Assembly: GCF_016907695.1 (NCBI RefSeq)
Contig: NZ_JAFBCK010000001.1
Location: 5,940,001-6,004,000, forward strand
Length of the DNA: 64,000 bases
Direction: 5' to 3'
DNA from: Actinokineospora baliensis
GTDB lineage: Bacteria; Actinomycetota; Actinomycetes; Mycobacteriales; Pseudonocardiaceae
Shown here: positions 2,311 through 62,400 of the stretch, one piece after another
How positions within the stretch are numbered: position 1 is the stretch's first letter
Layout of the letters: each line of letters opens with the position of its first letter
Translations under genes and position numbers: made by a program
Notes under the pieces: model-generated
The model's input: only the letters and a program-made list of their open reading frames with translations
What the model was told of the DNA's origin: nothing
Databases searched by the model: none

Positions 2311-2732
2311 GGGGTCGACAGCACGACCGTTGTCCGGGTGGAGACCTTCGCCGATTCGCGGATCTTGCGGAGGAGGTCTTCCAGATCCGCTGGCGACGCG
2401 ACCCTGACCAGCAGCACGTACGACTCGTCGCCCGCCACCGAGTAGCACGACTCGATCTCGCTGATGTGCTGCAGCCGTTGCGGATAGTCATCAGGAGCGG
2501 CCGGGTCGATCGGGGTGAGGGAGATCAACGCCGTCAAGGGCAGGCCGATGGCTTCGGCGTCCAAGCGGGCCGAGTAGCCGCGGATCACCTCGCGTTGCTC
2601 CAGGCGGCGAACGCGTTGGTGGACAGCGGAAACGCTGAGGCCCACGCGTTCGGCGAGGTCGGTGAAGCTGCGTCTGCCGTCGGCGGCGAGTTCCCGGACT
2701 ATGGCCTTGTCGATGGGTTCCAGTTCGCTCAT
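2283..2732 (-). CDS. Lrp/AsnC family transcriptional regulator
   Basis: 149 residues, the normal length for the family. The N-terminal AsnC-type helix-turn-helix (about residues 5-55) contains DLAERVGLSVSAVHQRVRRL. A C-terminal RAM/ACT-like ligand-binding and oligomerisation domain follows, with the SCYSVAGDESYVLLVRV strand typical of the family. Its ATG overlaps the stop of the upstream M24 peptidase gene (ATGA), so the two are translationally coupled. A dipeptidase paired with an amino-acid-responsive regulator suggests control of peptide or amino-acid turnover. That pairing is the evidence; the effector is unknown. Confidence 0.9.
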   Translation of the reverse strand: MSELEPIDKAIVRELAADGRRSFTDLAERVGLSVSAVHQRVRRLEQREVIRGYSARLDAEAIGLPLTALISLTPIDPAAPDDYPQRLQHISEIESCYSVAGDESYVLLVRVASPADLEDLLRKIRESAKVSTRTTVVLSTPYEGRSPAL

Positions 2733-3865
2733 CCGGGCAGCACCACGAGCTCGTGCGGCTGGTTGTTGACCGACTCGACGCCGTCCTCGGTGACCACGAC
2801 GATGTCCTCGATGCGGGCGCCCCAGCGGTCGGGCAGGTAGATGCCCGGCTCGACGCTGAAGGCCATGCCCGGCTCCAGCACCAGGTCGTTGCCCGCCACG
2901 ATGTACGGGTGCTCGTGCACGTCGAGGCCGATGCCGTGGCCGGTGCGGTGGATGAAGTACTCGCCGAAGCCCGCGTCGGCGATGACCTGGCGGGCGGCGG
3001 CGTCGACGGACTCGGCGGTGACGCCGGGGCGGACGGACTCGACCGAGGCGCGCTGGGCGGCGGCCAGGACCGCGTAGGTCTCGGCGACATCGGCGTCACG
3101 GGGGTCGCCGACGGAGTAGACGCGGGTGCTGTCGGAGTTGTAGCCGTCCGCGGTGGAACCGCCGATGTCGATCACCACGACGTCACCGGCGGTGATGACC
3201 CGGTCGGACAGGCTGTGGTGCGGGCTGGCGCCGTTGGGACCGGACCCGACGATGACGAACTCGACCTTGGCGTGCCCCTCGGCCACGATCGCGGCGGCGA
3301 TGTCGGCGCCCACCTCGGCCTCGGTGCGGCCCGCGCGCAGCCACTCCCCCATCCGGGCGTGCACGCGATCGATCGCGGCACCTGCGACGCGCAACGCCTC
3401 GACCTCGGCCGCATCTTTGCGCATCCGCAGCTCGCGCAGCACCGGACCGGCGAGGACGTGCTCGGCACCGGGCAGCGCCGCACGCAGCGGGAACGCGTGC
3501 AACGCGGGCAGCACATCCCCCACCGCCACGACCGACGGCGACCCCAGCGCACCGGCGACTAGCGCGTACGGGTCCTCCCCGTCGACCCAGGTCGCCAGCC
3601 GGACACCCAGCGCCTCCAGCGGCACACCCGCGTACCCGGGGGCCTCGAGCTTGGGCACGACCAGCAAGGCCTCGTCGCCCGCAGCGGGCACGACCAGGGC
3701 GGTGAGCCGCTCGAACGACGACCCGGACCCACCGATCAGGTACCGCAGATCCGATCCCGGCGCGATCACCAGGGCGTCAGCGCCCTGCGCGGTGGCGGCG
3801 TGCCTGGCGCGCTGGAGCCGGGCGCGCAGCAGATCGGGGTCGGCGGAGGTGACGGTGGTCGACAT
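2729..3865 (-). CDS. M24 family Xaa-Pro dipeptidase/aminopeptidase
   Basis: 378 residues from the ATG at 3865. An N-terminal creatinase-like domain (about 1-140) precedes a pita-bread metallopeptidase domain. The metal-ligand motifs are in order: VVVIDIGG and NSDSTRVY (two Asp), HRTGHGIGLDVHEHP (His), FSVEPGIY (Glu) and RIEDIVVV (Glu). The expected reaction is release of the residue N-terminal to proline from di- or oligopeptides in the cytoplasm, using two Mn or Co ions. It is the first gene of a two-gene operon with the Lrp-type regulator (4-bp overlap). Longer in-frame starts run into the upstream TTGTGGAC repeat array and are rejected. Confidence 0.88.
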   Translation of the reverse strand: MSTTVTSADPDLLRARLQRARHAATAQGADALVIAPGSDLRYLIGGSGSSFERLTALVVPAAGDEALLVVPKLEAPGYAGVPLEALGVRLATWVDGEDPYALVAGALGSPSVVAVGDVLPALHAFPLRAALPGAEHVLAGPVLRELRMRKDAAEVEALRVAGAAIDRVHARMGEWLRAGRTEAEVGADIAAAIVAEGHAKVEFVIVGSGPNGASPHHSLSDRVITAGDVVVIDIGGSTADGYNSDSTRVYSVGDPRDADVAETYAVLAAAQRASVESVRPGVTAESVDAAARQVIADAGFGEYFIHRTGHGIGLDVHEHPYIVAGNDLVLEPGMAFSVEPGIYLPDRWGARIEDIVVVTEDGVESVNNQPHELVVLPG

Positions 3866-4044
3866 ACCCCGCAGCCTAGCGCCGATGTCGGACCGATTCA
3901 GGCGGCCTCCGACACTGGGGTCCAACGGCCCCCGCTTCAAGATCACATCGAGCTGAGCAGCCCCCGTTTCCAGCCTGCCAGAGGGCACCGACAGGAAGGG
4001 GCGCCGCCCGGTGGGCCTGTGGGCAACTCGGCGGGGCGTGTCGG

Positions 4045-4748
4045 TTGTGGACCAGTTCGGGGTTGTGGACGGCTCAGCGGTTGTGGACCGGCCCGGTGTT
4101 GTGGACCAACCGGGGGGTTGTGGACGGCGCACGGGTTGTGGACGGGCCCGGAGGTTGTGGACACGCAGCGGGTTGTGGACCGATTCGAGGGTTGTGGATC
4201 AGTCCGGCGTTGGGGACCGGTTCGGGGTTGTGTACCAACCGGGGGGTTGTGGACGGCGCATGGGGTGTGGACGGGCCCCGAGGTTGTGAATCGGCTGGGG
4301 GGTTGTGGACCGACTCGCGGGTTGTGGGCAGGTCTGGCGTTGGGGACGGCTTCAGGGGTTGTGGACGGCTCGGGATGGACCGGCAGGAAGTGGTGGATCG
4401 GCAGCAGGCTGTGGATCGGTTCCGGGTTGTGGACCAGCCGAGGGGTTGTGTACGGGCTCGGAGGTTGTGGACGGCTCGGAGGTCGACCGGCAGCACGTTG
4501 TCGACCGGCAGCAGGCTGTGGATCGGATCCGGGGTTGTGGATCGGCTCGGGGGTTGTGGATCAGTCCGGCGTTGTGGACCAGTCGAAGGGTTGTGGACAG
4601 GCGGCGGGTTGTGGATCGGCTCGCGGGTTGTGGACCGGCAGCAGGTTGTGGACACCTCGGGGGTTGTGGATCAGTCCGGCGTTGTGGATCAGCCGGGGGG
4701 TTGTGGACGGGTTGGGCGGTTGTGGACGAGTGCGGCGTTGGGGAGGGG
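4045..4748. repeat. Tandem TTGTGGAC/T array, ~38 units of 18-19 bp
   Basis: About 700 bp of degenerate tandem repeats. The core TTGTGGAC or TTGTGGAT recurs every 18 or 19 bp (core starts include 4045, 4063, 4081, 4099, 4118, 4136, 4155, 4173 and 4192), separated by 10-11 G/C-rich bases. Some cores are decayed to TTGGGGAC, TTGTGTAC or CTGTGGAT. The mixture of 18- and 19-bp units shifts the reading frame repeatedly, so long open frames here on both strands are by-products. The core read on the other strand (GTCCACAA or ATCCACAA) matches most of the DnaA-box consensus TTGTCCACA, with the best units (TGTGGACAG, TGTGGACAC) at 8 of 9. It fills the gap between the M24 peptidase and an MFS gene. Confidence 0.9.
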
Positions 4749-6014
4749 TCAGGTGGTCGCGGGGATGCGGTGGTCCATCTGGCGCCAGGTCGGGAACAGC
4801 AGGGGGCACAGGGTGGCGCCGAGGTAGACGACGGCGCCCGCCCACAGGGTGGCGACCAGGCCGAAGCCCTCGACCGACAAGCCCGCCAGGGCCGTCCCCA
4901 GCGGCATGCCGCAGTAGGCGCCCGCGTACATCACGCCGAAGACCATCGGGAGCACCGACTCGGGCACCCGCTCGTACTGGGTCACGCCCAGCACCGGGTT
5001 GATCGCGCCGACCCCGAGTCCCAGCACCGCCCACAACACCAGCACCACCGGTAGCGGCGCGCCCAGCGCCAGCACCACGAACCGGGGAGCGCCGCTGAGC
5101 AGGAAGGCGAACGCGAAGGTCAGCCTGCGGGGCAACCGCGGTCCCGCCCAGGCGAAGGCGAGCGAGCCGGTCAGGGCGGCGGCGTTGAACACGCCGGACA
5201 TCAGGCCGAGCGCGATGCTGCTGTGCAGGACGTCCTTGGCGAAGACCGGCATCAGGACGGAGAAGAACGCCGCGTCGAGCAGGTTGGTCACCGAGATCAT
5301 CAGCACGATCCCGCCCATCAGCCGGTCCTGCCGCAGATACGCCAGGCCGCGCCGCAGACGGGTCAGGTACCGCCCCGGCTCGGTCTCGGCGGCGCCGCCG
5401 ACCACGGGCACGAACGCGCGGATCAGCAGCGCCGACACCAGGAACGTGCCCGCGTCCACCAGCAGCACCGACTGCGGCCCGATCACCGCGATCAGCACAC
5501 CGGCCAGGGGCGCGCCCAGCATCCGCGCGCCCCTGGACACCCCGTCGTAGCCGCTGGCGGCCCGTTCGCCGCTCACTCCGGTCACCGCGATCAGGCCGGG
5601 CATCATCGACTTCCGCGCGGTCTCCCCCGGCGCCACCGCCATGCCCAATGCCACCGCGAGGACGAGGAGCGCGCCGAAGGGCAAACCCACCGTGGCGTGC
5701 AGCAGCGGGATGGTGGCCACGACCGCCGCGGCCGCCAAGTCCGAAGTCACGCTGACCGCGCGGCGGCCGAAGCGGTCGACCACCGGCCCTGCCAGCAGCG
5801 CCGCGACCACCGTGCCAACCACCTCGGCGCCCGCGGTCAACCCCGTCTTGGCGGCGCTACCCGTGGTGGCGAGCACGAACCACGGGACCGCCAGCACGGT
5901 CATGATCGACCCGCAGGCCGAGAACGCGTTCGCGGTCAACAGCGCGATCAACGGCAGCCGACGCGAGATCCCCCGTGACCGGCGCTCGGGGTCGACCGCG
6001 GTCGGGGCACTCAC
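4749..6014 (-). CDS. MFS transporter
   Basis: 421 residues with about 12 hydrophobic segments. The cytoplasmic loop between TM2 and TM3 carries the MFS motif-A form GPVVDRFGRRAV. A second repeat begins after a central loop rich in Arg (TRLRRGLAYLRQDR). The ETARKSMMPGLI segment is typical of the MFS_3-like enterobactin-exporter/macrolide-efflux group, suggesting drug or metabolite efflux, but the substrate is unknown. The GTG start overlaps the stop of the upstream ArsR-type regulator gene (GTGA), giving a regulator-efflux operon. The gene ends right at the TTGTGGAC repeat array. Confidence 0.88.
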   Translation of the reverse strand: MSAPTAVDPERRSRGISRRLPLIALLTANAFSACGSIMTVLAVPWFVLATTGSAAKTGLTAGAEVVGTVVAALLAGPVVDRFGRRAVSVTSDLAAAAVVATIPLLHATVGLPFGALLVLAVALGMAVAPGETARKSMMPGLIAVTGVSGERAASGYDGVSRGARMLGAPLAGVLIAVIGPQSVLLVDAGTFLVSALLIRAFVPVVGGAAETEPGRYLTRLRRGLAYLRQDRLMGGIVLMISVTNLLDAAFFSVLMPVFAKDVLHSSIALGLMSGVFNAAALTGSLAFAWAGPRLPRRLTFAFAFLLSGAPRFVVLALGAPLPVVLVLWAVLGLGVGAINPVLGVTQYERVPESVLPMVFGVMYAGAYCGMPLGTALAGLSVEGFGLVATLWAGAVVYLGATLCPLLFPTWRQMDHRIPATT

Positions 6015-16021: not shown

Positions 16022-16996
16022 TCAGGTGGCCGAGAGGTGACGATCCAGCCGCGCCACGGCGGCGGCCGCCTGCGCCAGCACCGCTTCGGCCAGCTCAGCC
16101 GGTTCCTCGACCACGACCTCGCCGCCCTGACCCAGCACCAGCCGCACGAGCCACGAGCTGTCGGAGTAGCGCATCCGCACCCGCAACCTGCCGCCGTCGA
16201 GCTCCTCGACGTCCTCCACCGGGTAGTACTCGGAGATCCACCGGGCGTCCGGGCGCAGCACCAGCCGGGCCGAGCGCTGGTCGGGGGCGGCCCGGAACAG
16301 GCCCTCGGAGGTGTCGGTCGGCTCGGCGTAGGGCGGCGGCGCGGCGGGCTCGTCGAGCACGACCACCTCGTCGACCCGGTCCAGCCGGAACAGCCGGACC
16401 CCCTCGGCGCGGCGGCACCACGCCTCCAGGTAGCCGCGGCCGTCGACGATCAGCACCCGCATCGGGTCCACGGTCCGCTCGGTCATCTCGTCCTTGGACG
16501 CGGTGTAGTACGAGATCCGCAGTGCCCGCCCCGCGCGCAGCGCCGACTGCACCACCTCGCGCGCCTCGGCGGTCTCCGCGGCCTCGCGGACCCCGAGGCC
16601 GACCTCGACCCCGCCCGGCCTGGCCTGGCCTGCGGCCGACTCGATCTTGGCGACCGCGCGGCGGATGGCGTCCGCCTCGGCCACCCCAGGGGTGTCGAGC
16701 AGGGCGCGCAGCGCGACCAGCAGCGCGGTGGCCTCGGCGCCGGTGAGCCGCAGCGGCCTGCGCATCCCGGCGTCGAAGGCGACGGTGACGGTGTCCTCGT
16801 CGAAGGAGATGTCGATCAGGTCGCCGGGGCCGTAGCCGGGCAGACCGCACATCCACAGCAGCTCGAGGTCCTTGCGCAGCTGCTTGGCCGACACGCCGAA
16901 GTCGGCGGCGGCCTCGTCGATCAGGATCCCCGGCCTGGCCAGCAGGTAGGGCACCAGCGCCAACAACCTCGGCAGCCGCTCCTGGGCAGCGGTCAC
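16022..16996 (-). CDS. pafC: WYL-domain transcriptional regulator PafC
   Basis: 324 residues from the GTG at 16996. A divergent N-terminal helix-turn-helix (AADFGVSAKQLRKDLELLWM) is followed by a WYL domain containing ISYYTASKDEMTERTVDPM and GRGYLEAWCRRAEGVRLFRLDR. A C-terminal WCX-type extension ends the protein. With PafB it forms the PafBC activator of the LexA/RecA-independent DNA-damage response in mycobacteria. The GTG overlaps the pafB stop by 4 bp (GTGA). Like pafB it lies near pafA, though the pair acts in transcription rather than pupylation. Confidence 0.92.
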   Translation of the reverse strand: MTAAQERLPRLLALVPYLLARPGILIDEAAADFGVSAKQLRKDLELLWMCGLPGYGPGDLIDISFDEDTVTVAFDAGMRRPLRLTGAEATALLVALRALLDTPGVAEADAIRRAVAKIESAAGQARPGGVEVGLGVREAAETAEAREVVQSALRAGRALRISYYTASKDEMTERTVDPMRVLIVDGRGYLEAWCRRAEGVRLFRLDRVDEVVVLDEPAAPPPYAEPTDTSEGLFRAAPDQRSARLVLRPDARWISEYYPVEDVEELDGGRLRVRMRYSDSSWLVRLVLGQGGEVVVEEPAELAEAVLAQAAAAVARLDRHLSAT

Positions 16997-17970
16997 ATCG
17001 GCCCCCTCGCCGCGGCCAGCAGCCGCTCCCGCACCGACTTCGCCAGCACCTCCGGCTCCAGCACCAGCACGTCCGCGCCGTACCCGGCGATCCAGCCCGC
17101 CGCGGTGTCCGGGTACAGCAGGTCCAGCTCGACCAGGTCGCCCGCGATCCCGTCGACCTCCCGCTCCCCCACGACCCGCGCCCGCCGTCGCAACCCGGCA
17201 CCGCGCCCGGCGGCGATCCACAGCGACGCGGTGGCCGACTGCGGCGGCTCGGCGTTGTTCGTGTTGGCCACGAAGGCCATCAGGTTCACGTCGTCGGGCC
17301 TGCGCACCGCACCGGGCTTGCCGACCTTGCGCACCTCCCCGACGATCCGCGACAGCCGGAAGCAGCGCGGCGCACCGCGGTCGCGGTCGTGGCCCACCAC
17401 GTACCAGCGGCTGCGCCAGGAGACGACACCCCACGGTTCGAGCTGGCGCTGCCGCAGCTCCGCGGGCGAGGGGCGGCGGTAGTCGAAGGCGACGGCCTGG
17501 CCCGCCTGGACGGCCGCGAGCAGCGGACCGAACGCGGGCTCGGTGGTCCGGACCTTCGACTCGACAACGGTCGGCGCGCTCTGATCCACGTCGACCCCGG
17601 CGGCGCGCAGCTTCAGCAGGGCACCGTGCGCCGCACCGGTGAGCTCCGGGGAGTCCCACAGCCGCACCGCGAGCGCGACCGCGGCCGCCTCGTCTGGCTC
17701 CAGGTCGATCTCGCCGAGCTCGTAGTCCCGGCGGGCGATCCGGTACCCGTCGACGGTGTCGACGACCTTGGTGCGGCCGACCTCCAGCGGGATCCCCAGC
17801 TCCCGCAGCTCGGTCTTGTCCCGCTCGAAGGTCCGGAAGAACGCCTCGTCACTGGGCGCGTCGGAGTACCCGGGCACGATTCCCCGGATCTTCTCGGCGC
17901 TGAGGTACTGGCGGGTGGACAGCAGGCACAGCACCAGGTTCACCAGGCGTTCGGCGCGTGCGACAGACAC
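16993..17970 (-). CDS. pafB: WYL-domain transcriptional regulator PafB
   Basis: 325 residues from the GTG at 17970 (VSVARAERLVNLVLCLL), which matches family N-termini better than the longer frame start. An N-terminal winged helix-turn-helix (about 5-70, with FFRTFERDKTELRELGIP) precedes a WYL domain (FDYRRPSPAELRQRQLEPWG, then SRWYVVGHDRDRGAPRCFRL). It partners with PafC, encoded immediately downstream with a 4-bp overlap. In mycobacteria PafBC binds promoters of DNA-repair genes after damage. An AT-rich stretch at 18116-18142 upstream could hold the promoter. Confidence 0.92.
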   Translation of the reverse strand: MSVARAERLVNLVLCLLSTRQYLSAEKIRGIVPGYSDAPSDEAFFRTFERDKTELRELGIPLEVGRTKVVDTVDGYRIARRDYELGEIDLEPDEAAAVALAVRLWDSPELTGAAHGALLKLRAAGVDVDQSAPTVVESKVRTTEPAFGPLLAAVQAGQAVAFDYRRPSPAELRQRQLEPWGVVSWRSRWYVVGHDRDRGAPRCFRLSRIVGEVRKVGKPGAVRRPDDVNLMAFVANTNNAEPPQSATASLWIAAGRGAGLRRRARVVGEREVDGIAGDLVELDLLYPDTAAGWIAGYGADVLVLEPEVLAKSVRERLLAAARGPM

Positions 17971-18143
17971 CAGCGAACCATAACGCCCCTGCTCCCGGCG
18001 GCGGCAGCCGCCACACCCGAACACGCGTTCTAGTCCCCGACCACTCCGCTGCGCGGTCACCCGCATTACACTCGGTAGCCAACCCCAACACCCCTCAGCG
18101 CACTCCTCCCCCTCAAGAACATTATCTAGATAGAAGATAGCTG

Positions 18144-18710
18144 CTACCCAAGTCCAGACGCCAGGAAGTCAGTTCGGGTGAGCCGCCAGCGGACGTCGAC
18201 CCCGTCCTCCCCCGGCGTGATCGGCTCCTGCGGCGGCGACACCCTGGCCACCTCCCGGAACCCCAGCCGCCGCGGTATCGCCCCGCTGCGCGGGTTCGCC
18301 GTGTCGTGCACGATCTCCACCCAGTCGACGTCCGGCAGCGCGAACACGGCAACCAGCATCGCCTCCGTCGCGGCGGTGGCGATCCCCCGGCCGACAGCGT
18401 CCGGGTGCAGCCAGTACCCCATCTCCACGCCACGGGTGCCCGCCAGGAACCGCGTCCCGCACCGCCCGACGATGCGTGAGTCGACGGTGATCGCGTAGGC
18501 GAAGTCCACGCCGCGATCCCAGTCGTCGTCGCAGCGGGCGATGTGGGCGCGGACCGACTCCGCGGTGGGGTCCTCGGCGGCCCAGGCCATCCAGGGGCGC
18601 AGGTGCTCGACCGACTCCTCGATCACCAGCAGCATCTCGTCGACGTCAACCGCGGTGGTCCTGCGCAACACGACCGGCGGCTTGCTCAAGACAGCGGGAA
18701 GGCGGGCCAT
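18144..18710 (-). CDS. RimJ/RimL-type GNAT acetyltransferase
   Basis: 188 residues. GNAT fold with an early VVLRRTTAVDVDEML strand, the EMGYWLHPDAVGRGIATAA acetyl-CoA-binding loop (Gly-rich R/Q-x-x-G-x-A variant), and the VEIVHDTANPRSGAIPRRLGF segment typical of ribosomal-protein Ser/Ala N-acetyltransferases. Probable activity is acetylation of an N-terminal amine or small molecule in the cytoplasm; the substrate is unknown. It follows pafA by 43 bp on the same strand and may be read from the same transcript. Confidence 0.88.
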   Translation of the reverse strand: MARLPAVLSKPPVVLRRTTAVDVDEMLLVIEESVEHLRPWMAWAAEDPTAESVRAHIARCDDDWDRGVDFAYAITVDSRIVGRCGTRFLAGTRGVEMGYWLHPDAVGRGIATAATEAMLVAVFALPDVDWVEIVHDTANPRSGAIPRRLGFREVARVSPPQEPITPGEDGVDVRWRLTRTDFLASGLG

Positions 18711-18753
18711 GCCGGAAGATCCTCCCGGCCCGACCCGCCTCCCGGCAACGCGG

Positions 18754-20112
18754 TTACAGCGAAGCGATCAGCCGTTCCACCCGCTCGTCGACCGCGCGGA
18801 ACGGGTCCTTGCACAGCACGGTGCGCTGGGCCTGGTCGTTGAGCTTGAGGTGCACCCAGTCGACGGTGAAGTCCCGGCCCGCCTGCTGGGCGGCGGCGAT
18901 GAAGTCGCCGCGCAGCTTGGCCCTGGTGGTCTGCGGCGGGGTGTCCTTGGCCGCCTCGATCTCGCCGTCGTCGGTGACCCTGGCGACCAGGTCCTTGCGC
19001 TGCAGCAGGTCGAAGATGCCCCGGCCGCGGCGGATGTCGTGGTAGGCCAGGTCGAGCTGCGCGATCCGCGGGCTGGACAGGTCCAGGTCGTGCTTGGCCC
19101 GGTAGCGCTCGATCAGCCGGTGCTTGATGGCCCAGTCGATCTCGCGGTCGATGCGGGTCATGTCCTGGGCCTCGACCGCGTCGAGCACCTTCCCCCACAG
19201 CTCGACCACCCGTTCGCCGAGCGGGTCGGGCGAGCGGCGGGACACGTGCTCGACGGCCTTGGCGTAGTACTCGCGCTGGATGTCGAGCGCCGAGGCCTCC
19301 CGGCCGCCCGCCAGCCGGACCGGCTTGCGCCCGGTGAGGTCGTGGCTGATCTCGCGGATGGCGCGGATCGGGTTGTCCAGCGAGAAGTCGCGGAACTGGA
19401 CGCCGTCCTCGATCATCTCCAGCACCAGGTTGGCGGTGCCGACCTTGAGCAGGGTGGTGGTCTCGGACATGTTCGAGTCGCCGACGATCACGTGCAGCCG
19501 CCGGTAGCGCTCGGCGTCGGCGTGCGGCTCGTCGCGGGTGTTGATGATCGGCCGGGACCGGGTGGTGGCGCTGGAGACGCCCTCCCAGATGTGCTCGGCG
19601 CGCTGCGAGAGGCAGAACACCGCCCCGCGCGGGGTCTGCAGCACCTTGCCCGCCCCGCAGATGAGCTGGCGGGTGACCAGGAACGGCAGCAGCACGTCGG
19701 CGATCCGCGAGAACTCCCCGGCCCTGGTGACCAGGAAGTTCTCGTGGCAGCCGTAGGAGTTGCCCGCCGAGTCGGTGTTGTTCTTGAACAGGAAGATGTC
19801 GCCGCCGATGCCCTCGTCGGCCAGCCGCCGCTCGGCGTCGACGAGCAGGTCCTCCAGGATCCGCTCGCCCGCCTTGTCGTGGGTCACCAGTTGGACGAGG
19901 TCGTCACACTCCGCGGTCGCGTACTCCGGGTGTGAGCCGACGTCGAGGTAGAGGCGTGAACCGTTGCGCAGGAACACGTTCGAGGAACGCCCCCACGACA
20001 CCACCCGCCGGAACAGGTACCGCGCGACCTCGTCCGGCGACAGCCTGCGCTGCCCGTGGAACGTACAGGTCACGCCGAACTCGGTCTCGATGCCGAAGAT
20101 CCGCCGCTGCAT
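18754..20112 (-). CDS. pafA: Pup--protein ligase PafA
   Basis: 452 residues, full length for PafA. It begins [16 protein letters not shown] with the glutamate-rich metal/ATP motif of the carboxylate-amine ligase fold. [44 protein letters not shown] and [13 protein letters not shown] are shared signatures of PafA and Dop. It lacks the insertion (Dop-loop) present in the dop product of this window. It activates the C-terminal Glu of Pup with ATP and forms an isopeptide bond to lysines of target proteins. It is encoded apart from prcAB-pup-dop, separated by the PAP2-DGK and LysR genes. Confidence 0.97.
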
Positions 20113-20257
20113 CCTCTAAGCGTAGGCGCAAAGCGGGCACCGGACCGTGCGCCGTTCGGGGTGGTCCACATTCTGTTATCGAGCGCACGGTAACCGGTTG
20201 TTCACCGGGCCGGGGTCGGACGGCGGCGGGGGCCAGCGTCGGGTTGAATCTACGATC

Positions 20258-21766
20258 ATGTTCGGACAAGTCCGGCGGACCGGGCGCCAGGTGGGCCGCG
20301 TCGACCAGCGGCTGATGCAGCGCAGCGCCGCCCTGCCCCGCTCCCGCGCCGATGACGCGCTCAAGGCGCTGTCGCGCTCGGCCAACAAGGGCAGGCTGTG
20401 GTTCGCCCTGGCCGCTCTGCTGGCCGCCCGCAAGGGCTCGACCAGGCGCGCGGCGCTGCGTGGAGTCGCCGCGATCGGGTTCGCCAGCGCCTCGGCGAAC
20501 CTGGTGGGCAAGAACCTGTTCCCGCGCAGGCGGCCCGCGGCGGAGCTGCTCCCCGAGCACCGGCGGCTGACCAAGCGGCCGACCAGCTCGTCGTTCCCGT
20601 CCGGGCACTCGGCCTCCGCGGTGGCGTTCACCACGGCGGTCGCGATGGAGAACCCGGGTGCGGCCATCGCTCTGGCGCCGGTCGCGGCGGCGGTGGCGTA
20701 CTCGCGGATGCACACCGGCGTGCACTGGCCGACCGACATCGCCGCGGGCGCGGCCATCGGGGTCGGCGCGGCGTACGCGACCCGGCACTGGTGGCCCAAG
20801 ACGCACGAGGGTCCCGCGCACGTGACCGAGACCGTGCGGCTGGCGGCGCTGGAGGACGGCGACGGGCTGTTGGTGCTGGTCAACCCGAACTCCGGCGCGG
20901 CGGGGGTGGACCCGACCGACGAGATCAAGTCGTACTGGCCGCTGGCCACGGTGGTGCACCCGGAGCCGGGCCGCGACCTGGTGGAGCAGCTGTCGCAGGA
21001 GCTGGGGACCCCGCCGCGCGACATCACCGCGATCGGGGTGGCGGGCGGTGACGGCACGGTGGCCGCTGTGTCCACGGTCGCCGCCGAGTTCGACCTTCCG
21101 CTGGTGCTGATCCCGGCCGGGACGCTCAACCACTTCGCCCGCGACGTCGGCGTGGAGTCGACCGCCGAGTCGGTGGAGGCGGTGCACTCGGGTACCGGGG
21201 TGCGCATCGACCTGGGGTTCGTCGACATCTCCGGCTCGGAGGGCCGCACCCACCGGTGGTTCGTCAACACCGCGAGCCTAGGCGGCTACCCGGAGATGGT
21301 GCGGCTGCGGGAGCGGCTGGAGGGCCGTAACTGGCCCAAGTGGCCCGCGGGCGCGATCGCGCTGATCCGCACGCTGCGCCGGGCCCAGCCGATCCGGCTG
21401 GAGCTCAACGGCAAGTCGCACCTGGTGTGGATGCTCTTCGTCGGCAACGGCACCTACTCCCCCAAGGGCTTCGGCCCGACGCGGCGGCCCGCGCTGGACA
21501 CCGGGCTGCTCGACCTGCGGTACCTGCGCGCGGACGTGCCGTACTCGCGGGCCAGGTTCGTGCTGGCCACGCTGGCCGGGACGCTGGTCACCAGCCACGT
21601 GTACCGGCAGCGCGACGTGCGGTCGGTGCGGGTGCGGCTGCTCGACGAGCACCGCAGGATCGCCACCGACGGCGAGGTGGGTCCGCTGGCCGACGAGTTC
21701 GAGTTCAGCGCCCGCCCCGGGGCGCTGGCGATCTACCGCGGCGACCTCACGCCTGGTCCGCGGTGA
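20258..21766 (+). CDS. PAP2 phosphatase - diacylglycerol kinase-like fusion
   Basis: 502 residues from the ATG at 20258. The N-terminal half is a membrane-associated type 2 phosphatidic acid phosphatase. Its motifs are KNLFPRRRP, SSSFPSGHSAS and SRMHTGVHWPTDIAAG, holding the conserved Lys/Arg, Ser-Gly-His and Arg/His residues. The C-terminal half is a DAGK catalytic domain with VNPNSGAAG, GVAGGDGTVAAVS and IPAGTLNHFARDVG. One protein could therefore dephosphorylate and phosphorylate lipid phosphates, or the kinase-like part may be regulatory. Homologous fusions are common in actinomycetes. It ends 20 bp inside the convergent LysR gene. Confidence 0.9.
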   Translation: MFGQVRRTGRQVGRVDQRLMQRSAALPRSRADDALKALSRSANKGRLWFALAALLAARKGSTRRAALRGVAAIGFASASANLVGKNLFPRRRPAAELLPEHRRLTKRPTSSSFPSGHSASAVAFTTAVAMENPGAAIALAPVAAAVAYSRMHTGVHWPTDIAAGAAIGVGAAYATRHWWPKTHEGPAHVTETVRLAALEDGDGLLVLVNPNSGAAGVDPTDEIKSYWPLATVVHPEPGRDLVEQLSQELGTPPRDITAIGVAGGDGTVAAVSTVAAEFDLPLVLIPAGTLNHFARDVGVESTAESVEAVHSGTGVRIDLGFVDISGSEGRTHRWFVNTASLGGYPEMVRLRERLEGRNWPKWPAGAIALIRTLRRAQPIRLELNGKSHLVWMLFVGNGTYSPKGFGPTRRPALDTGLLDLRYLRADVPYSRARFVLATLAGTLVTSHVYRQRDVRSVRVRLLDEHRRIATDGEVGPLADEFEFSARPGALAIYRGDLTPGPR

Positions 21767-22706
21767 ACCGCGCCCACCAGTCGGCGAACAGCGGGTTGGT
21801 GTCCACGAGCTGGGCGTAGGCCTCCAGCAGGGCTTTGGGGGCCTGGTCGGCGGCACCGGCCAGCGCGCTCTCCTCGTGCCAGACCAGCACGATCTCCTGG
21901 CGCATCGGGTTGCCCGCGATGGCCCGGATGACGATGCCGCTGCCCTGCCTGGCGACCGGCTTGGCCAGGGTCACCGCGCCCGCCTGGACCAGGGCGCGGG
22001 TGGTGGTCGAGTCGGTCAGCTGGTGCTTGATGATCGGGGTGAACCCGGCCTGCGCGCAGACCCTGGTGAAGGCGAGCTGCTCGGTGCCCTCGGCGACCGG
22101 GGGCATCACCCAGCTCTCCCCCGCCAGCTCGGCCAGGTCGATCTCGTCGCGGTCGGCCAGCGGGTGGTCCACGGCCAGGGCCAGGAACAGCGGGGCGCGG
22201 AACATGATCCGGCTCAGCAGCCGGGGCGGCAGGCTGGTGCGGAAGCCCGGGTTCTCCTCGAGCACGGCGAAGTCGACCTTGTGGTCGAGGACCTTGCGGA
22301 CCAGCTCGGCCGGGTGCATGTCGATGTCGATGGTGGCCTCGGCGCCGCCGAGCCTGCCCGCGATGGCGGTGGCGAACAGCGGCACGATCAGCCCGGGCGG
22401 GCCGCCGACGCGGACCTGGCCGGTGTGGGTGGCCAACTGGGTGCGCTGGCGGATGCCCGCCATCAGCTCGTCGACGTCGTTGAGCAGGGCGCGCGCCGAG
22501 GACAGCACGTAGCTGCCGAGGTCGGTGGGGACGACGCCGGTGCCGGTCCTGGCGAACAACAGGCCACCGACGCGGCGTTCGAGGCGCTGCAACTGGGCGG
22601 TCAGAGCGGGTTGGGACACCCCGAGCTGGACGGCCGCCTTGGACAGGCTGCCCGCGTCGGCGACCGCGCGGATGACGCGCAGATGACGGAGTTCCAACTC
22701 GCTCAC
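21747..22706 (-). CDS. LysR family transcriptional regulator
   Basis: 319 residues. N-terminal LysR helix-turn-helix at about 3-62 (LRVIRAVADAGSLSKAAVQL, GVSQPALTAQLQRLERRVGG). A substrate-binding domain of periplasmic-binding-protein type follows. The GTG start at 22706 precedes SELELRHLRV. No divergent target gene is adjacent, so targets are unknown. The 3' end overlaps the convergent PAP2-DGK gene by 20 bp. Confidence 0.92.
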   Translation of the reverse strand: MSELELRHLRVIRAVADAGSLSKAAVQLGVSQPALTAQLQRLERRVGGLLFARTGTGVVPTDLGSYVLSSARALLNDVDELMAGIRQRTQLATHTGQVRVGGPPGLIVPLFATAIAGRLGGAEATIDIDMHPAELVRKVLDHKVDFAVLEENPGFRTSLPPRLLSRIMFRAPLFLALAVDHPLADRDEIDLAELAGESWVMPPVAEGTEQLAFTRVCAQAGFTPIIKHQLTDSTTTRALVQAGAVTLAKPVARQGSGIVIRAIAGNPMRQEIVLVWHEESALAGAADQAPKALLEAYAQLVDTNPLFADWWARFTADQA

Positions 22707-22932
22707 ACCAAAGTTATGCCCGCCGCGCGGACATTATGCAAACCTCCCGACGCTCCCTGGGAATATCCGCACATTTTCCCTGGGCGGCGTGTGAAACCAG
22801 CGAGTAGTGCATCCATGTGCACATCAGTCAGCGCGGTGACGATCCGCAACCGGCACTCACGCGACGTGGTCGCCGCCGGTTGTCGGGACCACCCGCCGCA
22901 GGGTCGGGATCGCTCCCACCGGTGATCGACGA

Positions 22933-22977
22933 AGGCCGTGCGCGGGTCGGCCACTATTCGCCGACCGCGCACGGCCT
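22933..22977 (-). terminator. Terminator of the dop-pup-prcB-prcA operon
   Basis: Long hairpin with arms AGGCCGTGCGCGGGTCGGC and GCCGACCGCGCACGGCCT, matching except for one bulged base, around the loop CACTATTC. It lies 7 bases past the prcA stop in the direction of prcA transcription. Confidence 0.82.
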
Positions 22978-22983
22978 CGGCTG

Positions 22984-23766
22984 CTACTCGGGGGCGTCCT
23001 CGGACGGCAGTTCGACGTCCTCGACCGGGCGGGCCGGGGACTCCGGCTCGGCCGCCGGGGGCGCCTCGGCGGGCAGGACCGCGGTCAGCGCGGCGCCCTG
23101 GATGCGGCGGAAGGCTCGCAGTGGGCGGTGCCGCTCCAGGACCGCGACCTCCAGCTTGTCCGGGGTCGGCCCCGCCTCGGTCGCGCCGTTGCCGGTGGCC
23201 CCGGCGCCGAACGCCTTGAGCGCGACCCGGATGGCGTCGGGGAGCGCGAGGCCGTCGCCGAAGTTCTCCTTCAGCGACGTCAGCAGCGGCTCTGTCTGCC
23301 CGCCCATGACCAGGAACTGCGGCTCGTCGACGATGGAGCCGTCGTAGGTGAGCCGGTAGAGCTGGTCCTGCGCGGGCGTGGCACCGACCTCGGCCACGCA
23401 GATCTCCACCTCGAGCGGCTTGACCTGCTCGGTGAAGAACGTGCCCAGGGTCTGGGCGTACACGTTGGCCAACTGCCGCGCGGACACGTCGCGGCGGTCG
23501 TAGGAGTAGCCCCACAGGTCGACGTGCCGGATGCCGCCGCGGCGCAGGCTCTCGTACTCGCTGTAGCGGCCCGCGGCCGCGAACCCGATCCGGTCGTGGA
23601 TCTCCGACACCTTGTGCAGCGTCGCCGAGGGGTTCTCGGCGACGAACAGCACGCCGTCGGCGTACTTGAGCGCGATGACGCTGCGGCCCCGGGCGATGCC
23701 CTTGCGGGCGTACTCCGAGCGATCGCGCATCAACTGCTCGGGCGAGGCGTACAACGGCATCGTCAC
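22984..23766 (-). CDS. prcA: 20S proteasome alpha subunit PrcA
   Basis: 260 residues. The N-terminal segment [20 protein letters not shown] gates the pore in actinobacterial alpha rings and includes the alpha-specific helix. [20 protein letters not shown] opens the proteasome fold. There is no N-terminal Thr, consistent with a non-catalytic subunit. The C-terminus is an acidic, Ala/Pro/Glu-rich tail. Alpha rings cap the beta rings and dock Mpa. It is the last gene of the dop-pup-prcB-prcA cluster, 57 bp after prcB, and is followed by a strong terminator. Confidence 0.97.
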
Positions 23767-23823
23767 GGGGCGGGCTCCTTCTCGACCGGGGTAGGCGTGC
23801 TGGCTGGTCTGGTCGCGGGCACG

Positions 23824-24681
23824 TCAGCCGCGGGGGTGCGCGGAGCGCTGGGCGACCACGGCGGCGGCCACCGAGGCGGCCTCCTCCTCGGTCACCCGCA
23901 CCGCGCCGGTGTCGGCGGTGATGGTCGCGATGCTCGGGTAGATGCCGCGGCCCATGTCGGGTCCACCGGTGGCCGAGTCGTCGTCGGCGGCGTCGTAGAG
24001 CGCCTCCACCGCCGCGCGCAGCGCCGCGTCCCGGTCGCCGTCGGGCTGGTAGAGCTTCTTGAGCGCGGAACGGGCGAACACCGAGCCCGACCCGATGGCG
24101 TGGAACCCGGCGCGCTCCTCGTAGCGGCCACCGGTGATGTCGTACGACACGATCCGCCCGGCCCGCGCGGGGTCCTCGGCGTCGATGTCGTAGCCGACGA
24201 ACAGCGGCAGCACGGCCAGCCCGGCGAGCGCGACGTCGAGGTTGCCGCGCACCATGCTGGCCAGCTTGTTGGCCTTGCCGTCGAGCGAGAGCTGGACGCC
24301 CTCGATCTTCTCGTAGTGGCGCAGTTCCACCGCGTACAGCCGGACCATCTCCACGGCCAAGCCCGCGGTGCCCGCGATGCCCACCGAGGAGTAGTCGTCG
24401 GTGACGAAGACCTTCTCGATGTCGCGCTGGGCGATGATGTTGCCCGCCGTCGCCCGCCGGTCACCGGCGATCAGCACACCGCCGGAGAAGGTCAGCGCGA
24501 CGATCGTGGTGCCGTGCGGGGCGGCGTCGACCGGCGCGACCCGCTCCCCCGCGCCGCGGCCGCCCGGCAGCAGCTCGGGGGCCTGCGACCGCAGGAAGTC
24601 GGTGAACGACGAGGTGCCTGCCGACAGGTAGGCGGCCGGGAGCGCGGCGCCCAACTGCCCTCGGGACGAGGTGTGTTCCAT
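23824..24681 (-). CDS. prcB: 20S proteasome beta subunit PrcB
   Basis: 285 residues from the ATG at 24681. A 57-residue propeptide ends at AAPHG, so autocleavage would expose Thr58 of [12 protein letters not shown] as nucleophile. DRRATAG supplies the conserved Asp/Arg and [17 protein letters not shown] the lysine-region strand. Propeptide length equals that of M. tuberculosis PrcB. An upstream in-frame TTG (24693) is a possible alternative start. It forms the proteolytic chamber with PrcA. It sits 61 bp downstream of pup. Confidence 0.97.
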
Positions 24682-24742
24682 GCCTTCTTTCAATCCTGTC
24701 GCTGGACGGGGTGGGAGCGGGCTGCCCTGGGCGGGCAGCCGC

Positions 24743-24937
24743 TCACTCGCCGCCCTTCTGCACGTAGGCGCGGACGAAGTCCTCGGCGTTCTCCTCGAGC
24801 ACGTCGTCGATCTCGTCGAGGATGGCGTCGGTGTCGTCGCCGAGCTTCTCCCGGCGCTCCTGCCCGGCCGCGGTGGTGTCGTCGACGCCGTCGTCGCCGT
24901 CTCCGCCGCCCTGGCGCTGCGTCTGCTCCTGGGACAT
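24743..24937 (-). CDS. pup: Prokaryotic ubiquitin-like protein Pup (GGE form)
   Basis: 64 residues, intrinsically disordered N-terminus rich in Gln/Gly/Asp. The conserved C-terminal half is [21 protein letters not shown] followed by [10 protein letters not shown]. The last residue is Glu, encoded GAG just before TGA, rather than the Gln found in mycobacteria. It is therefore ready for PafA without deamidation. It tags proteins for the Mpa-proteasome. It lies between dop and prcB on the same strand. Confidence 0.96.
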
Positions 24938-25032
24938 GTCGCCTCCCGGTGTGGACTGGGGCCCTGTACTCGAACACTACCCAGGTGCGGCCCCTTTCGT
25001 CGTGGGCCGCGCCGGTCACATGATCGACCGGA

Positions 25033-26541
25033 TCAGCGCTTGGCCGCCCCGGTGAGCGCGTCGACGAGCTCCTCGGCGGTGTTCGCGGCGTCGAGCAGCG
25101 CCCCGACGTGCGCTTTCGTCCCGCGCAGCGGCTCGAGGGTGGGGATGCGCACCAGCGACTCGCGGCCGAGGTCGAAGATCACCGAATCCCACGAGGCAGC
25201 CGCGATGGCGCTCGGGTAGCGCTCCAGGCAGCGGCCGCGGAAGTAGGCCCTGGTGTCCTGCGGCGGGGTGGTGATGGCCGCTCGCACCTCGTCCTCGGTC
25301 ACCAGCCGCCGCATCGAGCCCCTGGCGACCAGCCGGTTGTAGAGGCCCTTGTCCAGCCGCACGTCGGAGTACTGCAGGTCCACCAGCTGCAGCCGCGGCG
25401 ACGACCAGGCGAGGCCGTCGCGGGCCCGGAAGCCCTCCAGCAGCCGCAGCTTGGCGGGCCAGTCCAGCCGGTCGGCGCACTCCATCGGGTCGCGGCGCAG
25501 CGCGTCGAGCACCTCGCCCCAGGTGCGCAGCACGTCGCGCCCCACCCGGTCCACCTCGGTGCGGTCGGCGTGCTCGGCGACCAGCTCGTGGTAGGCCTGC
25601 TGGATGTCGATGCCGGTGAACCGGCGGCCGTTGGCGAGCTCGACGGTGGCCCGCAGCGTCGGGTCGTGGCTGAGCACGTGCACCGCGCGGACCGGGTCGG
25701 CCAGCTTGAGGTGGTCGAACCGGATCCCGGCCTCGATCAGGTCCAGCACCAGCGCGGTGGTGCCGACCTTGAGGTAGGTGGCGGTCTCGGCCAGGTTCGC
25801 GTCGCCGATGATCACGTGCAGCCGCCGGTACTTGTCGGCGTCGGCGTGCGGCTCGTCGCGGGTGTTGATGATGCCGCGCTTGAGGGTGGTCTCCAGGCCG
25901 ACCTCGACCTCGATGTAGTCGGCGCGCTGGGACAGCTGGAAGCCCGCGCCGTCGCCGGAGGCGCCGAGGCCGACCCGGCCGGAGCCGCAGATGACCTGGC
26001 GGGAGGCGAAGAACGGGGTGAGGCCGCCGATCACCGACACGAACGGGGTGGAGCGGGCCATCAGGTAGTTCTCGTGGGTGCCGTAGCTGGCGCCCTTGTT
26101 GTCGATGTTGTTCTTGTAGAGCTGCAGCCGGGGCTGGCCGGGGACGGTGGCCGCGCGCAGCGCCGCCTCCTCCATCACCCGCTCCCCCGCCTTGTCCCAG
26201 ATGACCGCGTCGCGCGCGTTGGTGACCTCGGGCGCGGAGTACTCCGGGTGCGCGTGGTCGACGTAGAGCCGGGCCCCATTGGTGAGGATGACGTTGGCCG
26301 CCCCCAGGTCCTCCACGTCCGGGTCCGTCGGCGCCATGCCGGGCACACCCAGGTCGAACCCCCTGGCGTCGCGCAACGGCGACTCCACCTCGTAGTCCCA
26401 CCTGGCCCGCCGCGCGCGCGGGATGTCCGCCGCCGCGGCGTAGGCCAGCACGACCTGGGTCGATGTCAACACCGGGTTCGCCGTCGCGTCGCCCGGCACC
26501 GCGATGCCGTACTCGACCTCGGTTCCCATGATCCGCCGCAT
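25033..26541 (-). CDS. dop: Depupylase/Pup deamidase Dop
   Basis: 502 residues. Starts [17 protein letters not shown] with the catalytic/metal Glu region of the PafA/Dop fold. An insertion around residues 37-80 ([19 protein letters not shown] and following) is the Dop-loop absent from PafA here. Further motifs are [33 protein letters not shown] and [14 protein letters not shown]. Dop hydrolyses the isopeptide bond between Pup and substrates, and deamidates Pup-Gln where present. Since Pup here ends in Glu, recycling or removal of Pup is the likely main task. First gene of the dop-pup-prcB-prcA cluster. Confidence 0.97.
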
Positions 26542-26609
26542 ACGGCAAGCCTACGGGTCCTGCCCCGCCGGTTCGCCGTGAGACGTGCCGCCGCGGATAT
26601 GTTGACCGC

Positions 26610-27116
26610 GTGGAGATGGGTGTGGAGATGGTCGCGCACTACGACGCGGACGGGTCGGTGGTGGGAGCGGTCCCGCGGTCGCGGATGCGGGCGGAGGGCC
26701 TGTGGCACGCCTGCACCTCGGTCCTGGTGCGCTCCGGCGACCGGGTCTACGTCCACCGCCGCACCGACACCAAAGACGTCTTCCCCGGCGCGCACGACTG
26801 CTGGGCGGGAGGCGTGGTCGCGGCCGGCGAACCGGTCGACGAGTGCGCCGTGCGGGAGCTGGCAGAAGAACTCGGGGTCACCGGCGTCCCGCTGACCCCG
26901 CTGTTCACCCTCCGCCTGGAAGTCGCCGGGGTCCGCGAGCACCTGCACGCCTACGAAACCCACTGGGACGGCCCGATCACCCACCAACCGTCCGAGGTGG
27001 CCGACGGCTGGTGGATGACCATCGACGACCTCCGGACCCGCCTGGCCGACCCCACCTGGCCCTTCGTCCCAGACGGGCGGCTAGCGGCCCTGGAGTGGCT
27101 CAAGCGCCTCGACTGA
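26610..27116 (+). CDS. NUDIX hydrolase (IPP isomerase-like group)
   Basis: 168 residues. The NUDIX box is complete: GGVVAAGEPVDECAVRELAE followed by ELGV, matching G-x5-E-x7-R-E-x2-E-E-x-G. The preceding HACTSVLVRSGDRVYVHRRT and DVFPGAHDCWAGG resemble the YfcD/isopentenyl-isomerase-like subgroup, which hydrolyses nucleoside diphosphate derivatives. Divergent from dop, with 68 bp between starts. Several nearby starts (GTG 26610, ATG 26616) are possible. Part of its 3' end is repeated 245 bp downstream. Confidence 0.9.
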   Translation: MEMGVEMVAHYDADGSVVGAVPRSRMRAEGLWHACTSVLVRSGDRVYVHRRTDTKDVFPGAHDCWAGGVVAAGEPVDECAVRELAEELGVTGVPLTPLFTLRLEVAGVREHLHAYETHWDGPITHQPSEVADGWWMTIDDLRTRLADPTWPFVPDGRLAALEWLKRLD

Positions 27117-27364
27117 GCGCTTGCGGCAGCGACATCCGGGCGCCCCCGGCGCCCGAGGCCCACAACCACACCGACGGACGGCCGCCCTGGAATGGCCTCG
27201 AGCACCACCGCCTGACCGCCACCGACGGCGACATCTAGGCGCCCCGCGCTGGCAGACCACGCCCGCACCACAAGTCGCGGACGGCCCTCCTCGCAGGCCC
27301 TAGCCGCCCTCGTCCCAGACAGTTGACGGCCGCCGTGGAGTGGCTCAAGCGCCTCGGCTGAGCG
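27065..27364. repeat. Partial duplication of the NUDIX 3' end
   Basis: CGTCCCAGAC and TGGAGTGGCTCAAGCGCCTC followed by a stop context (GACTGAGCG) occur at the end of the NUDIX gene (27065-27119). They recur at 27311-27364 with a few changes (GGCTGAGCG). A third, more degenerate TGGAATGG-type copy lies near 27188. The distal copy forms the last codons, on the opposite strand, of the lipoprotein gene. It is a decayed local duplication filling the otherwise empty 228-bp gap. Confidence 0.72.
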
Positions 27365-28046: not shown

Positions 28047-28177
28047 CCGGACGGTATCGGGTCCACCGCCGCCCGGTGCGGGCGGTCGACCGACGGCCGT
28101 GGCGGCCGGTTCACCTCGCGTTGGCGCGCCGGTCGCCGCCGGGTGCCATGGTGTCGCCTGGGGAGGTCTCGACGCGA

Positions 28178-28213
28178 CGTGGGCCCCGACCAGGTGCCTG
28201 GTCGGGGCCCACG
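28178..28213 (-). terminator. Terminator of mpa
   Basis: Perfect 16-bp stem CGTGGGCCCCGACCAG (28178-28193) with CTGGTCGGGGCCCACG (28198-28213) and a GTGC loop, 22 bases beyond the mpa stop. Confidence 0.85.
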
Positions 28214-28235
28214 CGGCGTTCGCGGTCCAAGAGTC

Positions 28236-30056: not shown

Positions 30057-30428
30057 GTCGGCACCTCCTCCCGAACTCGTACCCCTACGGTACCGGCGAT
30101 CACCGACAAGGACAGAGCATCGACATGTCGGAACTTGCGTGTCACCCGCGGGCGGCACCCGCTTGGCCGCACCGGGTCCGCCATCCCGGTACTCGCGGGA
30201 ACCGGCCAGGCGTTACCGTGCGTCCGTGCACTAGGCCGACCGCGTGTGTAGTCCGGAGTGTCGCGGCAGCACAGGTTGTGTTACCGAGCCCGCACCGCTG
30301 CCTGGTCGGCGCGGGGTGCCGTGACACGATCTACCGCCACCGCGCGATCACCCCGCCAGAGGACGCGCGCTCACCGCAGCACCAGCAGCCAGGCCACCAG
30401 CGACAGCCAGCACGAGAGCCCGGGGACG
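30057..30428. other. Intergenic region between mpa and a divergent membrane-protein gene
   Basis: 372 bp with no supported gene. It must contain the mpa promoter and the promoter of the plus-strand P/Q-rich membrane protein. The last bases before the plus-strand ATG (CCAGCACGAGAGCCCGGGGA) resemble the leader before the third paralogue at 32207 (CCAGCACGAGCCGGGGA). That points to a shared translation-initiation leader. No other motif could be supported. Confidence 0.5.
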
Positions 30429-36974: not shown

Positions 36975-37275
36975 GATGGCACCAGCGACTCCGAGTGTCC
37001 AGTGGCTGGCAATGCTGTCGGAGTCGGGTGGTTGGGCTGGCGGGGCTGGCTCGGCGGGCTGGGCTGACACCAGCGGCTTCCGGGGAGCGGCGGTGGGGCT
37101 GACAGGGCCGACTCGGGGGCTGGGTTGGGTGGGCTGACTCGGCGGGTTGAGGTGGCACCAGCAGCTTCCGGGGAGCGGTGGCCGAGTTGGCGGGGTCGAC
37201 TCGGTGGGTTGGGCTGGCACCAGAGACTCCCGGGAGCCATGGCCGGGCTGGCGGGGTTGGCTCGGGGTCTGGGGC
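36975..37275. repeat. Degenerate GGCTGGCGGGG / CTTCCGGGGAGC repeats
   Basis: About 300 bp of imperfect repeats. The TCCGAGTGTCCAGTGGCTGG flank of palindrome C is followed by alternating GGGCTGGCGGGGCTGGCTCGG runs and CACCAGCGGCTTCCGGGGAGC units (near 37067, 37152 and, decayed, 37220). No coding gene is supported, and hisG, which follows hisE in mycobacteria, is absent here. Confidence 0.7.
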
Positions 37276-61117: not shown

Positions 61118-61173
61118 TCGCGCCTTGGTGATCGCGCCTTGGTGATCGCGCCTTGGTGATCGCGCCTTGGTGA
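61112..61173. repeat. 14-bp tandem repeat over the SDR stop codon
   Basis: TGGTGATCGCGCCT is repeated exactly four times (61112, 61126, 61140, 61154), plus a partial TGGTGA. The first copy provides the Trp codon and TGA stop of the SDR gene. Because 14 is not a multiple of 3, successive copies place TGA in all three frames. Confidence 0.95.
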
Positions 61174-62200: not shown

Positions 62201-62240
62201 CCCCCGCCCCCGCTTCGGAGACCCTCCCCGCGCACTCCCT

Positions 62241-62400
62241 CCCCCACCACACCTCTGGGGGGCGTCCCCGGTGCCAGTCTATCCGGGCTGGCACCGGCGA
62301 AGGGGTCAGGAGAGAACCTGTGGATGACCAGCAGGGTTGTGGACAACCGCGACCAGGAGAATGGGCCCGGCAGGGACAAGTTCACCCTGGTGGGCGGCCG
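62241..62400 (+). repeat. Hairpin + TTGTGGAC element, copy 2
   Basis: Begins CCCCCACC and CTCTGGGGGGCGTCCC. A hairpin follows, GGTGCCAG (62270-62277) with CTGGCACC (62288-62295) around TCTATCCGGG. Downstream are CTGTGGATG (62318) and TTGTGGACAA (62337), exactly 19 bp apart, the period of the 4-kb array. The latter contains a perfect TTGTCCACA DnaA box on the minus strand. Similarity to the copy at 62634 continues to about 62400 (GCGACCAG, AAGTTCACC). Confidence 0.85.

Follow-up and report, generated by a model that had tools for sequence, protein, structure and literature searches.

A 38-unit tandem array in Actinokineospora baliensis: a proposed expansion of the upstream box region in a dispersed promoter element

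Introduction

In Streptomyces, clusters of DnaA boxes also occur outside oriC. The DnaA-regulated promoters of E. coli, such as nrdA, mioC and purH, contain pairs of 9-mer boxes from which DnaA acts as an activator or a repressor (PMC8203912, PMC11317965). E. coli DnaA was described to prefer gaps of 2-3 bp between boxes (PMC11317965), and titrating boxes are reported to gather near oriC in this species (PMC12371093). PMC4285127 lists the 9-mer TTGTCCACA as the DnaA box of high affinity in both M. tuberculosis and S. coelicolor; the same paper gives the Caulobacter box TGATCCACA, which shows that one DnaA at least manages without the second T. A different sequence, tTGTCRgtg-8 nt-TannnT, is reported as the motif of LexA-independent DNA-damage promoters, called RecA-NDp promoters (PMC5656591), and PafBC is reported to act at this motif (PMC6789036, PMC8223512).

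In the present work we analysed a tandem array of DnaA-box-like sequences in the genome of A. baliensis. A first-pass annotation of this DNA had proposed a datA-like locus that titrates DnaA. We suggest instead that the array is the enlarged upstream part of a promoter element which is dispersed in many copies in related actinobacteria.

Results

The window, a stretch of 64,000 nucleotides, covers positions 5940001-6004000 of the 7.68-Mb single-contig genome of A. baliensis (G000). The array occupies 4043..4745 on the minus strand and was counted as 38 units with the core RTCCACAACC (GGTTGTGGAY on the plus strand), while Tandem Repeats Finder reported an 18-bp period with 37.5 copies at 4043-4727. 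Successive unit starts are 18 bp apart in 19 cases, 19 bp in 16, and 32 and 15 bp in one case each, and the gaps between the array boxes are 9-10 bp. An exact 8-mer was found in 25/38 cores (TTGTGGAC in 19 and TTGTGGAT in 6), the other 13 having 1-3 changes within the 10-bp core, and higher-order duplications of 55 and 107 bp were detected inside the array by Tandem Repeats Finder. The dense array of about 38 cores at 18/19 bp described in the first-pass annotation was confirmed by these counts. Its recurrence is far above chance; a core-pair pattern (GGTTGTGGAY twice, 6-14 bp apart) gave 16 matches genome-wide, 12 of them in the array, and none in the reversed control. Elsewhere in the window, the same program reported GC-rich tandem repeats with 88 and 61 bp units at 37024-37265 and a 14-bp unit, CGCGCCTTGGTGAT, repeated 4.9 times at 98% match at 61105-61173.

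The array fills most of the intergenic gap between two minus-strand genes. The stop codon of an MFS transporter gene (4749..5984, minus strand, PF07690, start chosen by eye) abuts the array at 4749, and the M24 peptidase gene (2729..3865, minus strand, PF00557 with E 5.4e-62) begins near 3865, at a start codon chosen by eye. The M24 product is PepQ-like by its best NCBIfam matches, all of which are under their cut-offs. The minus strand is the sense strand of both genes, and the array is there C-rich (47.7% C, 19.7% G) and weakly structured; of the unstructured, G-rich transcript described earlier, the weak structure was retained, but G-richness applies to the plus strand only. The earlier statement that the mixed unit length breaks any reading frame proved right, as the mix of 18 and 19 bp disrupts every frame. 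Because of this mixed pitch the units are not kept in one reading frame, and a protein-coding repeat was rejected; where open frames cross the array, the register of the unit shifts along them. The anatomy, a core of 10 bp with spacers of 8-9 bp, also spoke against a CRISPR, which was rejected. A phage collection searched with the array gave no match, and Rfam searches of the window stretch, 14 element loci and 10 loci of relatives gave nothing at gathering level and three sub-threshold miRNA matches.

The mean pairwise identity between units was 0.85 in the 10-bp core and 0.46 in the 8-bp spacer. Core differences stayed flat, at 1.4-2.1 of 10, across spacer differences from 0 to 7 of 8, and in the two unit pairs with 8/8 spacer differences no core base differs. 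Unit pairs with identical spacers showed the most, not the least, core difference (2.1 of 10), although this end of the curve is weak, six of the ten pairs representing one spacer type with degenerate cores. The pattern is not that of uniform neutral drift. Constraint on the core would account for it, and so would exchange among the cores; the two are indistinguishable here.

The sole Bac_DnaA match of the genome is located at 1,386,262 and is followed by an oriC-like box cluster, in which TTGTCCACA occurs. The distance from the array to dnaA is 3.12 Mb if the chromosome is circular, or 81% of half a chromosome. As dnaA and the box cluster next to it are found at another place, the array was not taken for oriC. 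Compared with TTRTCCACA, none of 28 array 9-mers is a full box; 12/28 match at 8/9, in agreement with the earlier remark that several units do so, and 16/28 match at 7/9. The 5' TT of the DnaA box has been lost, with T at position 1 in 9/28 sites and at position 2 in 3/28, and four sites read TGATCCACA. The likeness to DnaA boxes that had been pointed out before is now better founded in one respect, as the box that appears to have expanded is mostly TTGTCCACA elsewhere in the genome; on the other side, the array itself holds no full box. A DnaA-box reading of the array is plausible.

By the neighbouring peptidase, the nearest relative is A. diospyrosa DSM 44255 (G015), of the same genus, whose M24 protein is 96% identical. 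The equivalent gap of A. diospyrosa contains one box and the same element with its promoter, so that the copy number changes from 38 units to 1 box between these close relatives. No such array was found upstream of M24 in any of the 14 other genus genomes that have 1500 bp there; a 15th (G004) has just 67 bp upstream of M24 and is uninformative. Among the 14, A. diospyrosa has its one box in the array sense, two genomes have boxes in the opposite sense (two in G012 and one in G002), and 11 have none. The array looks lineage-specific, having grown or been kept in the A. baliensis lineage alone as far as seen. Absence from close relatives had been named as evidence against a function in DnaA titration; it was found for the array (14/14), whereas the boxes themselves are widespread.

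The unit RTCCACAACC resembles the distal box of the elements described below, mostly TTGTCCACAAC, and is unlike the proximal box, mostly TTGTCCACAGG. The array is out of register, with its first unit 28 bp, not 19, from the proximal box. A second array lies 8 kb away in the A. baliensis genome (5935.7-5936.0 kb), with 14 mostly degenerate units upstream of an element, and this array has a counterpart in A. diospyrosa. Contig 14 of A. diospyrosa carries an array of five boxes and a degenerate sixth upstream of an element, and a genome of another genus has a four-box array before a TAGACTGGC region. Because such shorter box arrays exist upstream of elements elsewhere, expansion seems to be a recurrent fate of the element boxes. 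At least three cores in a row were found in 14 of 346 sampled family genomes. Arrays of the same 7-mer in a genus designated g16 were rejected as relatives; an open frame reading VVHNRAVVHNRA runs through them in 5/5 loci. In these loci (L265, L266, L268, L270 and L272, near 1464-1640 on the reverse strand) the array lies in an open frame of the form (VVHNRA)n, possibly a multi-core peptide precursor; 4/5 show a start codon together with a ribosome site.

All three other core-pair loci of the genome (1834057, 6479726 and 7552725) also lie upstream of an element. In these loci and in the window alike, the cores are followed, in the RTCCACAAC direction, by AGGCTG...CGGGGGCT. The pattern AGGCTGN3-6CGGGGGCT has 25 copies in the genome and 1 in the reversed control, the window copy being at 3959-3976 (minus strand), and in an alignment of the 25 copies a box stands upstream of most. 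The box TTGTCCACA has 243 exact copies in the genome, where the control has 25; the 100 places listed are spread over the region between 0.06 and 2.97 Mb. It is enriched over control in all 16 genus genomes, at 66 to 573 copies, and the counts in the 24 genomes from other families run from 5 to 74.

A composite pattern was defined as TGTCCACA-N28-58-TAGRNT-N2-10-GGGG, overlapping matches being counted. It gave 112 matches in A. baliensis and none in the reversed control, and the 65 of these that were listed, reaching 4.21 Mb, fall on 44 distinct places. Eight relatives had 402 (A. diospyrosa), 142, 113, 107, 86, 77, 72 and 60 matches. Matches were present in 25/61 genomes, with one reversed-control match in each of two genomes, and 24 genomes outside the family gave zero matches. 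In G002, boxes about 39 bp from a TAACGT hexamer followed by GGGG were seen despite the lack of a composite match. Taken by its sequence, this is a dispersed promoter element with many copies in related actinobacteria. No description of the family was found in the open literature searched, judged by titles and the beginnings of abstracts.

The element has boxes at about -48 and about -67 from the -10 hexamer (TAGRNT), which is followed by GGGG. The 65 listed composite matches are 61-67 or 80-84 bases long with none between, though the pattern allows 31 distances; the box thus stands either at one set position or 19 bp upstream of it. The gap from box to hexamer was 37-41 in 60/60 rows of a picked sample. 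We also examined copies from G000, A. diospyrosa and G005 that were chosen regardless of boxes, taking at least 7/9 as a box. At least one box at -47 to -50 (proximal) or -66 to -68 (distal) was present in 86/89 copies and in 0/89 in a control window, a count that leaves out G008, whose sampled copies are without boxes. The 35 copies of A. baliensis include 3 with no box, 18 with one and 14 with both; 42 of the 43 copies of A. diospyrosa have both and the remaining copy one, and all 11 copies of G005 have both. The copies sampled in G008 lack a box immediately upstream, so that the boxes are not essential to the element; other places in G008 do match the composite pattern. Box starts in the elements are mostly 18-19 bp apart, and the 2-3 bp gap of E. 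coli box pairs was not found. The distal boxes of A. diospyrosa are mostly GTTGTCCACAAC, and those of G005 are TTGTCCACAAG or similar. Conservation is lower in the sequence that separates the boxes from the hexamer than in the blocks themselves, yet this sequence is not free within a genome.

The copy beside the array lies on the minus strand. Its proximal box TTGCCCACA (4018..4026), 8/9 to TTGTCCACA, is located at -49, 40 bp upstream of the -10 part, a position as in other copies. The -35 part CTGTCGGTG (3986..3994), 8 nt from the -10 part, has one mismatch to TTGTCRGTG of the RecA-NDp/PafBC motif, and the -10 part is CAGGCT (3972..3977), where most of the aligned copies have TAGGCT; relative to the motif, the copy thus shows two deviations, one in the -35 part and the other at the initial T of the -10 part. 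The conserved initial region AGGCTGGAAACGGGGGCTGCTC...TGATCTTG extends over 3938..3976 and is one of the 25 AGGCTGN3-6CGGGGGCT copies. Judged by sequence alone, DnaA boxes stand here upstream of a predicted promoter. The window has a further, ordinary element copy at 62237..62346 (minus strand), with TTGTCCACA and ATCCACA boxes and the -10 hexamer TAGACT at 62281.

A second element class of similar box geometry, represented by L291, L292 and window 62237-62346, has TAGACTGGCACCGGGG or TAGAATGGCATCGGGG and then a GC-rich hairpin-like stretch. Many copies in A. diospyrosa, G005 and G008 are followed by a long imperfect palindrome (GCTCGATGGGG..GTTTTGTGCGGGGCCCC ... GGGGCC..AAAAGC..GGCCC ...), found 100-300 bp downstream of elements in loci L078-L117 (e.g., L090 and L113) and also in L119. 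Ten palindrome-bearing loci gave no Rfam match at gathering level. One element copy (L324) has a transposase-like frame 322 nt downstream, identified by eye.

In copies with a box, the -35 part was scored as present when TTGTCRGTG matched with no more than 2 mismatches at a distance of 8 nt from the hexamer, a shift of up to 2 nt being allowed. It was found in 38/49 copies of A. diospyrosa, 11/41 of A. baliensis and 0/11 of G005, with a random-position background of 1.75%; the remaining 30/41 boxed copies of A. baliensis and all 11 of G005 have at least 3 mismatches. The exact RecA-NDp motif occurs 24 times in the A. baliensis genome and not once in the reversed sequence. By reading, 15/24 are elements, 13 of these 15 having boxes and one having three (at -86, -67 and -48). 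Of the nine others, one each lies before uvrA, uvrB and the gene of the proteasome ATPase (Mpa), and these three support the identity of the motif in this genome. It appears that a part of the element copies resembles DNA-damage promoters.

The Mpa comparison site lies in the window at 30087..30109 (minus strand). The window also carries a Pup-proteasome locus (16993-30158, minus strand) with a PafB-like gene, PafA, a second member of the Pup ligase family and the proteasome ATPase. The PafB-like WYL/WCX gene beside pafA (16993-18066) is about 12 kb from the array, and no conclusion was drawn from this. At L331 (G000:C1:3362306), an exact DNA-damage motif lies a few bases before an ATPase gene whose similarity to PtuA (retron Ec78) is below cut-off.

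Discussion

In this study, we found that the array at 4043..4745 stands upstream of a copy of a dispersed element and appears to be an extreme variant of the upstream part of that element. The arrangement of the parts, their constant spacing, the numbers of copies, the one box at the same place in A. diospyrosa and the conservation of core over spacer are observed; from these we infer a lineage-specific expansion of the distal box into a multi-site upstream platform for a box-binding protein, a reading to which we give an even chance. In ordinary copies, one or two TTGTCCACA boxes at fixed distances upstream would serve a promoter that starts transcription into a short conserved region containing GGGG. 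The element promoters are presumed to be active, and a regulator bound to the boxes would act from positions near -55 and -75. DnaA is the most probable regulator, as the leading candidate and no more, at about even odds with another protein. The many units presumably arose when adjacent boxes slipped or exchanged unequally. The array boxes, weakened by loss of the 5' TT, may then work in cis as the platform, raising the local amount of the box-binding protein beside the promoter before the M24 peptidase gene.

The main rival is a neutral minisatellite, in which slippage at two adjacent boxes of an ordinary element produced an array without a function of its own. It agrees with the presence of an array upstream of M24 in only one genus genome, with the 13/38 inexact units and the lost TT of the box, with the duplications of 55 and 107 bp, and with the shorter arrays before other elements in A. 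baliensis, A. diospyrosa and another genus. However, uniform neutral change predicts equal divergence, whereas the core is at 0.85 and the spacer at 0.46 with flat core divergence, and the second array has its counterpart in A. diospyrosa. We regard this explanation as possible, if rather unlikely. Somewhat less probable still is that a protein other than DnaA reads an imperfect palindrome, GTTGT-CC-ACAAC, of which the array holds the ACAAC half-sites. In the array, TCCACAACC is retained without the 5' TT that belongs to the DnaA box, the distal boxes of A. diospyrosa are mostly GTTGTCCACAAC, and the pitch of 18-19 bp is unlike the pair geometry of E. coli DnaA, all of which would suit such a protein; yet the proximal boxes TTGTCCACAGG are non-palindromic and about as well kept, and the 9-mer equals the published DnaA box and occurs in the oriC-like cluster of this genome.

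The C-rich minus-strand transcript after the MFS stop could also act at the RNA level, as a Rho-loading site that ends the MFS transcript. The RNA downstream of the gene is C-rich, G-poor and weakly structured, as expected of such a site by sequence, with a C/G of 2.4 and a folding energy of -32 per 150 nt, where 60 pieces taken at random from the window gave -66 +/- 9.7. But Rho is not known to need a conserved 10-bp core, and the same box stands elsewhere at a fixed distance from a promoter, which leaves this reading very improbable. The datA-like titration locus of the first-pass annotation fared no better and is, in our estimate, hardly to be expected, even though 28 sites within 700 bp agree with the DnaA box at 7-8 of 9 positions. 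The array has 0/28 full boxes and gaps of 9-10 bp, lies 3.12 Mb from dnaA if the chromosome is circular and is absent at this place in 14/14 informative genomes of the genus, whereas titrating boxes in E. coli gather near oriC; moreover, the 243 exact TTGTCCACA copies of the genome are scattered, as seen among the 100 places listed. A stand-alone DnaA-titration locus is probably not what the array represents.

We consider the element family more interesting than the array. If DnaA reads the boxes, the replication initiator would be tied to many promoters in these actinobacteria, part of them of the DNA-damage type, and such a DnaA regulon would be, to our knowledge, the largest known. If another protein reads them, a broad regulator is still missing from the books. 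In either case the family provides a natural series of box numbers (0, 1, 2, 3, about 5, 14 and 38) before related promoters, which allows direct measurement of dose response and of DnaA titration. A more far-reaching and speculative picture, to which we attach a low probability, would make the array part of an undescribed genome-wide system of intergenic elements in a part of the Pseudonocardiaceae, with tens to hundreds per chromosome. There, a DnaA-box pair at fixed distance would feed the initiator state into DNA-damage-type promoters that make short structured RNAs, and box number would be evolvable, with the window as the extreme, a 38-box amplifier.

Compared with known systems, the elements are like the nrdA, mioC and purH promoters of E. 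coli in having pairs of 9-mer boxes upstream of genes, but their boxes are 9-10 bp apart instead of 2-3 bp, and they form a large family per genome with one array of 38 units. With datA, DARS and the Streptomyces clusters the array shares its nature as a non-oriC cluster of DnaA-box-like 9-mers; unlike these, it has no full box, is far from dnaA, is not kept at this place among relatives and is tied to a promoter element. The RecA-NDp/PafBC promoters have their tTGTCRgtg-8 nt-TannnT motif in common with a part of the element copies, and it stands also before uvrA, uvrB and Mpa. To this the elements add fixed-distance boxes and a GGGG start region, while other copies are without the -35 motif. 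Dispersed promoter-bearing or MITE-like repeats also have many copies and species-specific variants, often followed by a palindrome, whereas the elements alternate well-kept blocks with less conserved stretches. Finally, the array resembles bacterial minisatellites (VNTRs) in its tandem units and in the change from 38 units to 1 box in A. diospyrosa, and it differs from them in the conservation of core over spacer and in its fixed place upstream of a promoter.
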